A stretch of DNA of 64,000 bases. Source: Niebla homalea. Taxonomy: Eukaryota > Ascomycota > Lecanoromycetes > Lecanorales > Ramalinaceae. The notes below the pieces were generated by a model that worked only from the letters and a program-made list of their open reading frames with translations, did not search any database and had not been told where the DNA came from. Every line of letters begins with the position of its first letter. Position 1 is the stretch's first letter. The stretch lies in assembly GCA_019925105.1 (NCBI GenBank), contig JAHGAU010000008.1:620001-684000 (forward strand). Direction: 5' to 3'. This document shows positions 10,685 through 18,151 of the stretch, piece by piece. The position numbers and the translations under genes were made by a program.

Positions 10685-13600
10685 CGATAGGTGAGTCTAA
10701 AGATTTCAACGTCGGACGATCCCTGTTTGTCGTGAAAAGGCATAGCCTTATCGACAAGTATTCCCCCCGGTCCCCACAGGTGCTATCCCGCTAGAGAGCT
10801 TAGGCTCACCCATGATCTTCCAATTTCTCAACGCTGGACATCAAGCGTTTCGCCACATTCGCGATAACCTGAGCGTCCAGCGTCGAATGCGGGGGAGCAG
10901 CAGTGAGCCTAAGACTAGCGCTTTGGGTGCCACCCGTCTGCGGGTAAGAAGCTCACTTGTCTGGCGCCGGATTTCGACGCTGGACGCACGGTGTTTGTTA
11001 AGAAAGGGTATCGCTCGACTCCCCAATAAGCCGAAAGCTTACTAACGCCATGCCAGATCCATGATGTTTATCGCATGGCGAGCAGCAAGATAGGTGAGCC
11101 TAACGTTACTAGTGACCTTTAGGCTCACCTATGATCCTCCCTTACTTTTCTTTCGCCACGTTTGCGACAAGTTGAGCGTCCAGTGCTCAGTGCGGGAGGA
11201 GCACCATAGGTGAGCTAGAGGACGCTAAATTCAGACTCACCTGTCGTGCTGGTGCCATCTATCTGCTGGAACACAGGTGGGCTCACCTGTCTCGCGCCCG
11301 CTCGTTGGAGAGGTGGTGTAGCTTTGCTGCTCAACTGGGTGGTCTGCCACCGCTTTGGGACTTTCAGCGTTGGATGCGGGAGCAGCACCATAGGTGAGCC
11401 TAATTGTTCTAGCGATACTAGGCTCACCTATGGTGCTCGTCATGACGCTGTCTTTGGTGGTAGTTTTGCCATCCATGCGCCGGTAGACGCACCTGCCTGG
11501 CACCAGATTGAACGCTGGAGGCCATGTGTTTGTCGGAAAAAGGCATGGTTTAATGAATGAGAAGGGACTTCTCAACTGCTATCCCGGATCCGTGACTTTC
11601 GGGCATCCAGCGTTGGATGCGGGAGCAGCACCATAGGTGAGCCTAATGGTTCTAGCCATGACGCTGGCTTGGGGGGGGTGGTTTTGCCATCCGTGCGCCA
11701 GTAGACGCACCTGCCTGGCAACAGATTCAACCCTGGAGGACATGCGTTTGTCGGAAAAGGGCATGGTTTGATGAATGAGTAGGGAGTTCTCAAGTGCAAT
11801 TCCAAATCCATGACCTTTGGGCGTCCAGCGTTGAATGCGGGAGGAGCACCATAGGTGAGTCTAAAGTAGCGCTTTTAGACTCACCTGTTATGCTGCTCCG
11901 GTATTCAACGCTGGACAGCAGATTTTCATCCAGAAGGGTTTGGCCCACCTATCGTACTACTCGTGCGCTGAACCTCAGACTCCCGGATTCATTGGGTAGA
12001 GGTTTGGTCTACTACACGCGCGAGTGATCCGTGTCTCCTAGTCGTCCAGCGTTGGATGCGAGAGAAAGGCCATAGGTGAGCCTAAAGTAGTGTCAATAGG
12101 CTCACCTGTGATATTCCTCCCGCATTGAACGCTGGACGACCAATCTTCGTCGAAGAGGGTATGGCTCACCCGTGATGCTGGTTCTCTGTCCAATGCTGGA
12201 CGGCACACGTTCATCAAAAGGAGTATGGGTCACTGATCGAATGGGCGAGACCCAACCGCTTTACCAAATCCAGAAGTCCTGGATATCCAGCGTGGCATGG
12301 GGGAGATGCATCACAGGTCAGTCTGGACTGGCATGACAGGTGAGCCTAACGCCGCTATTTTAGACTCACCTGTCGTGCTGTTCCCGGGCGCAACGCTGGA
12401 CAACAGATATTCATTAAAAGTAGTATGGCTCAATAATTGAACATTTGATTCCTTGGAGCTTTACCATCTCCATTACTTTTGGAGGTCCAGCATTGTATGC
12501 GGGAGCCGTCACATAGGTGAGCTAAAGTAACACGATAGGTGAGCTAAATTAGACTCACCTATGTTCTTCCTCCCCCCTTGAACGCTGGATAGCAATTATT
12601 CTTTGAAAAGAGTATAGTGCTGTGCTACTAGCAATTTCAACATTGGACGACCAAAGTCGTTGGAAAAGAGTCTAGTTATGTGATGAATCAGCGATCCCAC
12701 GAAGCTTTGCCAAAGTCTTGTTTCTCGACGTCCAGCATTGATTGCGGAAGCCGCACCATAGGTGAGCCTAAGGTAGTGGTAATAGGCTCACCTATGATCT
12801 TGCTCCTGCGTTGAATGCTGGACAACAACCGTTCGTTGAAAAGAGTATGGCTCACCTGCTATGCTACTTGCCTGTTCAACATTGGACGACCAAAGTTGTC
12901 TGGAAGAGGTTTAGCTCATTTATGAATCAGCGATCCCAGGAAGCTTCGACGTCTAACATCGAATGCGGGAGAAGGACCCCAGGTGAGTCTAGCAGACGCT
13001 ACTTTAGACTCACCTGTCGTGCTGCTCCAGCATTCAACGCTGGACAGTGCTTGTTGAATGAGAGCAGTATAGCTTTCCGATCAAAGGTACCGCTTTGCTG
13101 GATTCATGGATTGCGGTCGTCTTGCATCGTATGCGGAAAAGTACCATAGGTGAGCCTAAAGTAGCATGATAGGTGAGTCTAAGGTATCGTCTTCGGACTC
13201 ACCTGTCATCATGCTGCTCGGCAAACGTTTGTCGAAAAGGGTATGGCTCACCTGTTATTCTGCCGCCAGATTCAACGCTGGACGAAGTATATTCATCAAG
13301 AAGGGCATAGCCTTTCCATTGAGGGTGCTGCCATGCCGAATGCATGAGATCCGAACATCCATCATTCGATGCGGAAGCAACACCATAGGTGAGTCTAAAG
13401 TAGCACGACAGGTGAGCTGGATTAGACTCACCTATTATGCTGATGGTGCATTCAACGCTGGACAGCCCACATTTGACGGGAAAGGCATGGCTTTCCATCA
13501 ATTCTCTCCTTTCCAGATCCAAGCACTTCGCAAGTCCAGCGTTGGAGGATCACAGGTGAGCTAAATTAGACTCACCTATTATGCTGATTGTGCAGTCAAC

Positions 13601-15310
13601 GCTGGACAGCCAACGTTTGACGGGAAAGGCATGGCTTTTCGCATCACTTCTCTCCTTTCCAGATCCAGGCAATTCGCCACGTCCAGCATTGAAGGATCAC
13701 GGGTGAGCCTAAAGTAGCAAGAAGGGTGAACTAAATTAATTAGACTCACCTATTATGCTGATTGTGCAACCAACGCTGGACAGCCCACATTCGACGAGAA
13801 AGGCATGGCTTTCCATCAATTCTCTCCTTTGCAGATCCAGGCACTTGGTAAGCCAGTGTTGGAGGATCATAGGTGAGCCTAAAGTAGCACGACAGGTGAG
13901 CTAGATTAGACTCACCTATTATGCTGATTGTGCATTCAACGCTGGACAGCCCACATTTGAACGAGAAAGGCATAGCCATCATTCTCCCCGTCTGGATGTA
14001 GGCGATTCATAACTTCCAGCGTTGAAAGATCACAGGTGAACTTAAAGACGCCGACAATTTTAGACTCACCTATCATGCTGATTGTATATTCAACGCTGGA
14101 CAGCCTATATTTAAACAAGAAAGGCATAACCATCATCCTTCTCCTTTCCAGATCCAGGTACTTCGTACGTCCAGCGTTGAAGGATTATAGGTGAGCCTAA
14201 AGACGCCGATGATTTTAGACTCACCTATTATGCTGATTGTGCATTCAACGCTGGACAGCCCACATTTGAACGAGAAAGGCATAGCCATCATTCTCCCCGT
14301 CTGGATATAGGCGATTCATAACTTCCAGCGTTGAAAGATCACAGGTGAGCTTAAAGACGCCGACAATTTTAGACTCACCTATCATGCTAATTATGCATTC
14401 AACGCTGGACAGCCCATATTTGGATAAGAAAGGCATAACCATCATCCTTCTCCTTTCCAGATCCAGGTACTTCGCACGTCCAGCGTTGAAGGATCATAGG
14501 TGAGCCTAAAGACGCCGATGATTTTAGACTCACCTATTATGCTGATTGTGCATTCAACGCTGGACAGCCGATATTTGTCGAGAAAGGCATAGCTTTCCAT
14601 CATTCTACCCTTCCGGATGCAGGCAATTCGCAACGTCCAGCGTTGAAAGATCACAGGTGAGCCTAAAGACGCCGATGATTTTAGACTCACCTATTATGCT
14701 GATTATACATTCAACGCTGGACGGCTGATATTTATCGAGAAAGGCATAGCTTCTATTATTCTCCCCTTCCGGATGCAGGCAACTCCCAAGGTCCAGCGTT
14801 GAAAGATCATAGGTGAGCCTAAAGACGCCGACAATTTTAGGCTCACCTATTATGCTGATTGTGCATTCCACGCTGGACGGCAAGTTGTTTGACGAGATGG
14901 GGTATGGCTCACCTGTCGTGCTTGCTCCCCAACCCACACGCCAGAACAACCGACAACCAAGAACCTTTTCGCAGCGCTATTCTATACCGCATTCTCAAAA
15001 TTCCAGATCTCTCCAGCGTCGAAAGCATCCTACAACATAGGTGAGCCTAAATTAGCGCGCCCCTTAGGCCCCCATCCCCTCACTTGGGTGGAGCTCACCT
15101 TGCCTGACGCCTAGGTTATGTGTTGCGCACTATGCCATATCTCGACGATACCTCGACCGTCCAGCGTTGAAGCCGGGGGCGGTAACAAGATAGGTGAGCC
15201 TACTGTTGTTGCGGTGGTAAGTGGATTTTAGGCTCGGCTCTGTGCCCGGTGAGCTCACCTAGGGTATCTTGACGCTCCCGGCTTCGACGCTGGAGAGGTA
15301 TGCGCTTTGT
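10685..15310. repeat. Satellite array of nested palindromes
   Basis: About 26 divergent copies of one hairpin unit. In the clearest copy (14478-14565) the outer arms are GTCCAGCGTTGAA and TTCAACGCTGGAC (13 bp, perfect). The inner arms are ATAGGTGAGCCTAAA and TTTTAGACTCACCTAT (one mismatch), around a loop of about 11 nt. A spacer of about 67 bp with the recurring GAGAAAGGCATAGC motif separates hairpins. Right arms start near 13451, 13595, 13769, 13935, 14089, 14244, 14398, 14553, 14710 and 14865, so the period settles at 154-157 bp in the second half. The first half (10.7-13.3 kb) is irregular, with arms as ATTCAACGCTGGAC, CATTGAACGCTGGAC and so on. Open frames inside are repeat translations, not genes. 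Confidence 0.93.
13935..14877. repeat. Homogenised 155-bp tandem part of the satellite
   Basis: Seven consecutive right arms at 13935, 14089, 14244, 14398, 14553, 14710 and 14865, spaced 154, 155, 154, 155, 157 and 155 bp. The phrase AAAGACGCCGAYRATTTTAG fills the loop in nearly every copy. Higher similarity and regular spacing here than upstream suggest recent unequal exchange or local amplification. Confidence 0.9.
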
Positions 15311-15716: not shown

Positions 15717-16987
15717 TCATTTCGCCGCGACGCAAGGGAAGTAGCAGTCAATGACCGATCCAGTTCCCTTGGTCTTGATATCGCAATATCTCCCATCCGC
15801 ATTTCTCTGCGTGCTCGAGCCCTTCTGGTTGGACTCCCAGGAGAAGAACGTCATGAGATCTGTATTCGCCCCGTAGTTGAAAGCCACGGATTTACTGGGG
15901 TCGCTGTCCCCCTGATAAATGATGGCGAGATCTTCTGGAAGACCTTTGACGGTGATGGTGTCCTCCTTGTTCTTGAAGGTGCCGTCTTGGAAGCCCTTTT
16001 GGTCGTCCTTCTCGTTGTATACCGTGCCCTCGACCACGGTCCCGTGCAGGTCGACGACGACTTTGCATTGCAGGAGGTCTGGCTGGGTTTTGCCGAGGGC
16101 GTAGTGGTTGTGCTTGTCGACATCGTAGGGATAGCTGAGTTGACCGGTTTTCTTCGTCATGTGGAAGGCATACGGGTCATTGTCACAGTTGCTACCCGGG
16201 TTCTTGCACTGGTCGACCTTCCTAATCTGATTTCAGTGGCTGGGGCTTCCCATGATTGGAGGGAGTGGTGCGCTTACGTGGCATCTGGGACCTTGTCCAG
16301 ATTAAAATCGATGGTCCAGTGGTCACCGTCCCGCATCTCACCATCACAGGTCTTCGTTGGGCCTCTTGCATTGGTCCCATCGAACCATCTGCCTAATTGA
16401 GATCCGCCGCCTGCACATGTCAGCGTCTAGGTGATGATTATCGAAGCGAAAATGAAAATAGCGTACTGGAGTTCTCTCCTCTAGGTATGCAACGAAGACT
16501 GTTTCTGACAGTTCCATCTTTATAATCGTCTTGTTTGATCGCTGCCATTGGCCACTCATCACAGTTGACGGTTGTATCTCCAGGACTGCTATTAAGCGGA
16601 TCATGCAATTTTTGGCTGAAAGGCATGTGGTTGCACACCGTGCCATCGGAAGTCACGCAACCGGACTGTAGACGATTTTTGTCGTTACTATTGCTAGCAT
16701 CGTAACTAAATTTACGTCAGTACAGTGACGAAGTGAGAAGATGAAACGTAAATGTCATACACCATGGTCTGAGTCCCCTTGTCTATGCAATTTATGTGAT
16801 AGCAGGCATTGTTGCAGGCTCCTGCGGCTTTCTCACAATACATGACAAATTTGCCGCAATCACGTCCAGCTCTCTTGACAAGTCCCCTTGGATGCAAGCG
16901 CACATTTGGGCCAAAATATTCATTGGCGTATGCCTCGGTAGACCATATATGAAGCAGACCGGCTGCAGCAATAAGTGCAAGCCTCAT
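15717..16987 (-). CDS. Secreted protein with NucA/NucB-type deoxyribonuclease domain
   Basis: Four exons, 16987-16761, 16705-16467, 16410-16278 and 16221-15717, with introns of 55, 56 and 56 bp; exactly 368 codons (367 aa). MRLALIAAAGLLHIWSTEAYA is a signal peptide. A Cys-rich segment follows (CGKFVMYCEKAAGACNNAC). The middle reads NCDEWPMAA (about residue 128) and RCIPRGENSSGGSQLGRWF across the exon 2/3 join, the D-E-W-P and N-x-x-x-G pattern of fungal NucA/NucB-domain proteins. The C-terminal 165 residues carry YPYDVDKHNHYALG and no motif I know. Likely role: extracellular or effector-like nuclease; the activity is not proved by sequence. An in-frame ATG at 17038 would only lengthen the leader. 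Confidence 0.8.
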
Positions 16988-17428: not shown

Positions 17429-18151
17429 GTACAATTAACTACCCACTAAATGAAACACCACGGTTCGAGTAGGGTGTTTCTTACAGCAGGGGATTTCTTA
17501 TATCGCGAATGAAGTGGATTGAGAGCTATTACGGGCCCTGAATAGGCCGTTACTGCTTCTCACTTGTATATAATACTATCTACTCATCACCCTCACCCTC
17601 ACCTGCACCCTCACCTGCACCCTCACCTGCACCCTCACCTGCACCCTCACCTGCACCCTCACCTGCACCCTCACCTGCACCCTCACCTGCACCCTCACCT
17701 GCACCCTCACCCTCACCTGCACCACCACCCTCACCCCCCTCACCACCCTCACCACCCTCGCCACCCTCACCACCCTCACTTACCACTCACCACCCGCACC
17801 TGCACCTTCACCTTAATACCCACCTAGATCTCACAGTTACCTTTATCGGTCTCAATTCCAGGGTAAGAGTGCAGGTATACGTGCAGATAAAAGTAAGGGT
17901 TATGTGGTAAGGGTAATAAGGGTAATAAAGTATAAACCTCCCGGTATATACCCCTTAAAGAGCCCCCCTAGGTACATTCAGTATACCCCCGATAAGTAGG
18001 AAACAGATAAATTTCACCTTGAGGGTGATAAAACTTAAAGGTTAAAGGGAGTTTCTTAATTTTACCGGTGAAAAACCGTTTTCAAAACGAATTTCTTACA
18101 GCAGCTAGTTTCTTAGATCAGGTGTTTCATTTAGTGGGTAGTCAACTGTAC
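17429..18151. mobile_element. TIR-bounded non-autonomous element, 723 bp
   Basis: The left end reads GTACAATTAACTACCC then ACTAAATGAAACACC. The right end is the reverse complement, GTACAGTTGACTACCC then ACTAAATGAAACACC, so there are 31-bp terminal inverted repeats with two mismatches; the inner 22 bp (17438-17459 and 18121-18142) match perfectly. Near both ends the same TTTCTTACAGCAG phrase occurs in direct orientation (about 17477 and 18090). No transposase frame is present, so it would need a partner elsewhere. I could not define a clear target-site duplication. Both TIR differences are C-to-T type at CpA, which fits light RIP mutation. Confidence 0.72.
17583..17780. repeat. Minisatellite, 12-bp unit CACCCTCACCTG
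   Basis: About ten tandem copies of CACCCTCACCTG between 17583 and 17720, passing into degenerate CACCACCCTCACC copies to about 17780. It lies inside the TIR element. Strand-specific open frames (Leu/His/Pro or Gly/Glu repeats) are a consequence of the repeat. The unit contains CTCACCT, the same heptamer as the inner arms of the palindromic satellite 2 kb upstream; this may be chance. Confidence 0.92.

Follow-up and report, generated by a model that had tools for sequence, protein, structure and literature searches.

Within the window, by which we mean the whole 64-kb stretch of contig C8 analysed here (C8:620001-684000), an array of short, alternately flipped repeats extends over 4.6 kb between two convergent genes (approximately 10685-15310, with the first arm at 10705 and the last at 15283). 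On the left, a glycosyl hydrolase gene (PF11790; 9109-10392, plus strand) turns its 3′ end towards the array, as does, on the right, a minus-strand open reading frame without a Pfam family (15717-16160; codon-score segment 15768-16232); genes lie within about 300-400 bp of the array on both sides. The GC content of the array is 46-53%. A separate minisatellite with a 12-bp unit, CACCCTCACCTG, is present at 17594-17812. For one protein encoded in the window, the best 120 of 499 matches include named lichen-forming ascomycetes (Bacidia, Alectoria, Psora and Imshaugia), and a Lecanoromycete is accordingly the most likely host.

Inspection of the array revealed the layout that an earlier sequence-only reading had described at about the same position: outer arms GTCCAGCGTTGAA/TTCAACGCTGGAC, inner arms TAGGTGAGYCTAA together with their complement, and a GAAAGGCATAGC-like spacer. 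The arm TTCRAYGCTGGAC occurs 43 times at no more than two mismatches between 10600 and 15400 (26 forward and 17 reverse copies) and eight times in the remaining 59 kb of the window. Some 26 nested palindromes had been counted in that reading; that figure corresponds to the right-facing arms found at this threshold, and about 20-22 head-to-head palindromes are present (22 listed intervals). When up to three mismatches are allowed, the array holds 48 arm sites, some of them by chance, and orientation flips at 36 of the 47 steps from one site to the next, as compared with a shuffle mean of 22.9 (0 of 5000 shuffles reached as high a value).

Units in the left part of the array, from 11362 to 13119, are 31-78% identical to one another. 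This part includes a near-perfect, 97-nt head-to-head hairpin of an older type (11821-11917; fold z -11.9, with local alignment of its arms) and two direct plus-strand monomers about 64 bp apart (12125-12229, arms at 12125 and 12189), an arrangement repeated by a second pair with arms at 12811 and 12875. Among neighbours in the right half, unit identities reach up to 94%, and TRF reports periods of 155 and 309 at 13740-14878; the youngest part of the array (13850-14879), as judged from TRF and these identities, is made of ~155-bp dimers with a 309-bp higher-order period. The last unit is a 141-nt hairpin (15157-15297; fold z -6.9). Because no Pfam family scored over the cut-off in six open reading frames of the array (one match had an E value of 0.16), a protein-coding origin was rejected, as the sequence-only reading had also held. 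A search of the window against Rfam at gathering scores gave no match, and no tRNA or tmRNA was found in the window.

A bipartite element dispersed through the genome

A search of the genome (50.6 Mb in 52 contigs) with the full 155-bp unit at E values up to 1 returned at least 13 matches, with 13 of 13 lying in the array. Two exact arms placed head to head and 40-70 nt apart gave 12 matches, all in the array (control 0), which correspond to six palindromes read on both strands. The outer arm TTCAACGCTGGAC was found at 25 places, nine of them outside the array (control 0), and the inner arm TAGRCTCACCTRT at 38 (control 4), of which 36 belong to the array and the other two lie on C3 and C7, one on each. 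The C3 copy (L001) extends into half a unit whose arm has decayed, and represents a solitary monomer; the C7 match (C7:117729) resembles the 5′ splice site of an intron and was taken as chance. The exact 12-mer TTCRAYGCTGGA, the core of the arm, occurs at 133 places (100 of the 133 are listed) as compared with 15 for the reversed pattern, and 23 of these places are in the array; a 14-mer searched with one mismatch showed no excess (147 matches against 183 in the control). Exact arms in coding-like stretches at L022 and L044 were taken as chance, and L152, which also lies in a coding-like stretch, is a subfamily copy. Both variable positions of the arm (A/G and C/T) fall on CpG sites of TTCGACGCTGGA, a pattern that CpG decay would leave. 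The genome-wide check thus places the full unit in the array only and finds the element to which the arm belongs elsewhere as well, an affiliation that had been missed when the array sequence was read alone.

Comparison of the dispersed sites indicates that the arm is the front of an approximately 40-bp bipartite element scattered through the genome. Its second box, GGNAWRG, a motif defined after the flanks of the arm sites had been seen, starts 24-50 nt after the arm start in 22 of 66 distinct exact dispersed sites with 60 bp on each side (sites nearer an end were dropped), against 2/66 in the mirrored upstream interval, 2/66 farther downstream and a shuffle rate of 2.8%. Arm and box are separated by 13-25 nt, and by 18-24 nt in 17 of the 22. 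Within the array, at up to one mismatch, the box stands behind 11 of 21 plus sites and 9 of 19 minus sites, such that a palindrome can unite two complete, outward-pointing elements, each with one of the arms at its inner end.

The array is also matched by R2, a model of sequence alone built from 30 aligned dispersed copies (alignment A3), none of them from the array, whose rows were hand-picked as carrying the second box or as subfamily copies. In the 64-kb window, R2 has 32 matches at E values up to 10, all of them within 10867-15307 and on both strands, with much of the score supplied by the 12-mer core, which was the search key for the dispersed set and is conserved by construction. Of these matches, 28 have E values of at most 0.012, and 23 extend to model position 40 or more, that is, to the second box. 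Among them are one complete element pointing left, with left arm and second box (14447-14490, minus strand; E 4e-5), and one pointing right (14866-14911, plus strand; E 7.6e-5).

Outside the array, subfamily A forms a discrete element ~195 bp long. Its eight aligned loci span the interval around the arm from about -41 to about +150 (+176 at most), are 68-85% identical over matches of at least 130 bp (some pairs match in shorter pieces only), and have no flanks in common at E 1e-4. The 195-bp element carries a CACCAYCAC/GTGGTGATG hairpin (L120-L128, alignments A2 and A4), together with an outer stem located close to CCCAAA..GGNAAT/ATTACC..TTTGGG and a conserved GTGGC...TTTGATAT end (L120-L128). 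Genome searches returned ten matches at nine places for one subfamily A copy and four matches for a copy of a second kind, the query itself being included in each count. One subfamily A copy (L120, G000:C8:619707-619847) lies ~150 bp beyond the left end of the window, between converging gene calls. An RNA consensus fold of 11 dispersed copies, with a both-sided change in 1 of 29 pairs, reaches -18.8 kcal/mol; the reverse complement reaches -15.0.

Two other arrays were found. One (L024:1146-2325; G000:C8, about 309.3-310.5 kb) consists of direct copies, with 11 sites at up to two mismatches, and has matches in the genome to itself only; the other (L077, G000:C8:1585600-1587200) uses the same arm (TTCGATGCTGGAC) in tail-to-tail pairs ~60 bp apart, in units of about 155-190 bp with a different core. 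A 16-bp tandem repeat (GAGACGGGATAGGGAT) lies within a cluster of the element at L045:1524-1603 (G000:C41). Around 66 dispersed sites, a partly different set from that of the box count, there were no head-to-head and five tail-to-tail neighbours (controls 0 and 0), together with direct copies downstream in seven cases and upstream in eight (controls 1 and 1). No Rfam match was obtained for 15 loci at E values up to 1. A literature search on palindromes, satellites, fungi, lichens, lichen transposons and the arm letters, with many journals outside its reach, found nothing on the element, an unclassified dispersed repeat that may be absent from the repeat libraries used for lichen fungi.

Gene ends beside the element

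Neighbouring genes were called with a codon-score caller trained on eight open reading frames of the window (two of them without a family or homology test) and applied to 27 loci, the array included. At score 10, 24 of 32 flanks face the element with a gene 3′ end (P = 0.0035 against one half, and P = 0.0005 against 44.5%, a baseline from random noncoding points of this one window), a count taken from crude gene calls at picked, not random, loci whose flanks are not fully independent. The corresponding values are 28/39 at score 8 and 19/25 at score 14. Where both flanks were called, the seven loci at score 10 comprise five convergent, two tandem and no divergent arrangements, and those at score 8 seven convergent, seven tandem and none divergent; for one tandem locus (L137), a CFEM match on the other strand contradicts the call and would make it convergent, but the call was kept as scored. 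Five loci left out of the main count were scored later: L001, the solitary half unit on C3, has two 3′ flanks and lies between convergent gene calls, L022 lies inside a coding-like stretch, like L044 and L152, and L077, L078 and L079 have no gene call. The element is scattered in the genome, its sampled copies mostly neighbour the 3′ ends of genes, and the array is built from it in both orientations.

Read most broadly, these observations might describe a eukaryotic counterpart of the bacterial REP/BIME elements, namely a mobile, non-coding family of the lichen fungus that takes up positions at the 3′ ends of genes, splits into subfamilies with the ~40-bp bipartite core in common, gives rise to arrays repeatedly (this array, L024 and L077) and acts between converging genes; we put this forward as a tentative proposal that we hold to be doubtful. 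Its functional part can be stated separately. The preference for 3′ ends fits both tolerance of insertions and a role in ending transcripts; on the second reading the element, protein-bound or folded, would end or insulate converging transcription, as has been proposed for bacterial REP/BIME, and the array would be an extreme, selected case. The excess of 3′ flanks over random noncoding points of the window argues for such a role, as do the absence of divergent arrangements among the seven two-sided calls, the convergent setting of the solitary half unit, and a core motif common to subfamilies that otherwise differ. However, insertion tolerance away from promoters predicts the same setting, the strand of the element varies relative to its neighbouring genes (by eye), and the calls are crude. 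We consider a selected role at gene ends unlikely.

Pairing within the hairpins

Nine hairpins of the array were folded as DNA, and each was more stable than every one of its 200 shuffles (z -5.0 to -11.9). Near-perfect arms, reaching about 40 bp in length, occur in several older units, and several of these older units are single long hairpins, as at 11821-11917. In most right-half units the two spacers differ in length, the left measuring 20 nt and the right 29 nt from arm to arm, and the outer and inner stems are therefore parted by an unequal loop. The description of each unit as a hairpin within a hairpin thus holds mainly for the younger right half, and not for these older units.

The sequence-only reading had further proposed that paired changes in the arms preserve the fold rather than the sequence. 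Pairs were counted in 20 units (those at 11604-11739 and 15009-15111 were left out, as their arms could not be placed), giving 462 cells, with outer arms in 18 units and inner arms in 19. Of these cells, 401 are Watson-Crick and 61 are broken. Compensated changes account for seven of the 401 (shuffle mean 4.2, P = 0.04), and total pairing over the 20 units does not depart clearly from shuffles (P = 0.09). Six compensated changes were counted in units left of 13500 (P = 0.05; total pairing P 0.08) and none to the right. The weak excess in the older half stems largely from one inner-arm position, and arm-to-arm conversion would equally yield it. Mismatches favour wobble on neither strand, with 16 G.T against 24 A.C in the pair cells, and 20 G.T, 27 A.C and 54 other mismatches in local arm alignments. 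With 61 broken against seven compensated pairs, substitutions in the two arms are largely independent, and the keeping of fold rather than sequence is not supported; neither the pair counts nor the RNA energies of the two strands in the 20 units show a sign of selection on the fold.

These counts bear directly on the idea that the locus yields a long transcript that folds into ~20 stems, which Dicer would cut into small RNAs. Stems of up to about 40 bp that fold far better than shuffles are what such a locus would offer, but broken pairs far exceed compensated ones, neither strand favours wobble, mean folding energies on the two strands are similar (-44.9 and -45.7, with the plus strand better in 7 of 20 units), and Rfam gave no match, all of which makes a hairpin RNA locus very improbable. 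Since the argument from paired changes was not borne out, the small-RNA hairpins and maintained cruciform that had been suggested for the array are left without positive support here.

TFIIIC-bound boundaries occur in yeasts, and the arm could be imagined as a Pol III B box in an array of this kind, given that its TTCRAYGC fits the B-box motif WTCRANNC and that several copies read GTTCGACGC, but this reading is extremely unlikely: the G expected in front is variable (frequently A, but also C or T), TGGA is kept although it lies outside any B box, CpG decay would explain the A/G and C/T positions, no regular A box was seen by eye, and the window has no tRNA.

Origin of the array and comparison with known systems

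The reading that we favour, with a probability of roughly 0.7, is that the array is a local satellite, present once in the genome, of many copies of the ~40-bp dispersed bipartite extragenic element, grown by inverted and tandem duplication. One copy and its own 5′ flank would have been duplicated in direct and inverted orientation as a monomer of ~64 bp, a size given by the arm spacings 12125-12189 and 12811-12875. Head-to-head inverted pairs would then have produced the hairpin-forming ~155-bp dimers, and unequal exchange may later have multiplied, in the right half, both these dimers and a 309-bp unit made of two of them, an order of events drawn from one genome alone. The hairpins would follow from the inverted arrangement as a side effect, with arm-to-arm conversion perhaps maintaining their similarity, and the convergent intergenic space may tolerate the array because no promoter is hit there. 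A mild barrier or terminator role between the converging transcripts is possible, if putative, and the kept arms in otherwise diverged old units could reflect selection on sequence instead of neutral growth.

Among the origins suggested by the sequence-only reading, a satellite from a MITE-like seed comes closest, as a short dispersed element does build the array. Like a MITE, this element is short, non-coding and dispersed, has discrete boundaries and can form hairpins; however, no terminal inverted repeats or target-site duplications of the kind that mark a MITE were seen by eye at the ends of the eight subfamily A copies. The array also resembles satellite DNA in its repeated head-to-tail units with homogenisation (periods of 155 and 309, and the identities among neighbours), but forms no large heterochromatic or centromeric block, being 4.6 kb long, 46-53% GC and close to genes. 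Satellites derived from transposable elements are treated in a review (PMC9659126) and in a report on an oyster Helentron satellite (PMC7492417). The array shares with them tandem units, a higher-order period, an identity gradient and a related dispersed repeat, but it is small, lies in a gene-rich setting and has an inverted dimer as its unit, and the parent element is unclassified.

The closest likeness in layout is to bacterial REP, BIME and REPIN sequences, which are described as short extragenic elements of the order of 100 copies that can be regularly spaced and alternating, form hairpins as inverted pairs, and prefer gene 3′ ends and convergent spaces (PMC2817692, PMC3116915, PMC3733652, PMC1525189). 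The lichen element is likewise short, extragenic and of the order of 100 copies, with inverted pairs that form hairpins; its copies in the array are regularly spaced and alternate (36/47 switches, shuffle mean 22.9), and it prefers gene 3′ ends and convergent spaces (24/32 flanks, by crude gene calls). In contrast to REP, its arm core TTCRAYGCTGGA is not self-complementary, with inverted partners at 5/66 dispersed sites, and, unlike in REP/BIME, its head-to-head pairs are confined to this array and the host genome is a eukaryotic nuclear one. A search of the genome for the RAYT-type Y1 transposase (PF01797) gave no matches, the control being positive in 5 of 14 named genomes. The array thus resembles REP/BIME in layout but is not a member, given its eukaryotic host, its non-palindromic single copies and the lack of a Y1 transposase match. 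If the pattern holds in related lichens, it would mean that BIME-like arrays can form in nuclear genomes in the absence of the bacterial transposase, and it would become testable whether arrays in convergent spaces are merely tolerated or do work there, for example in ending transcription.
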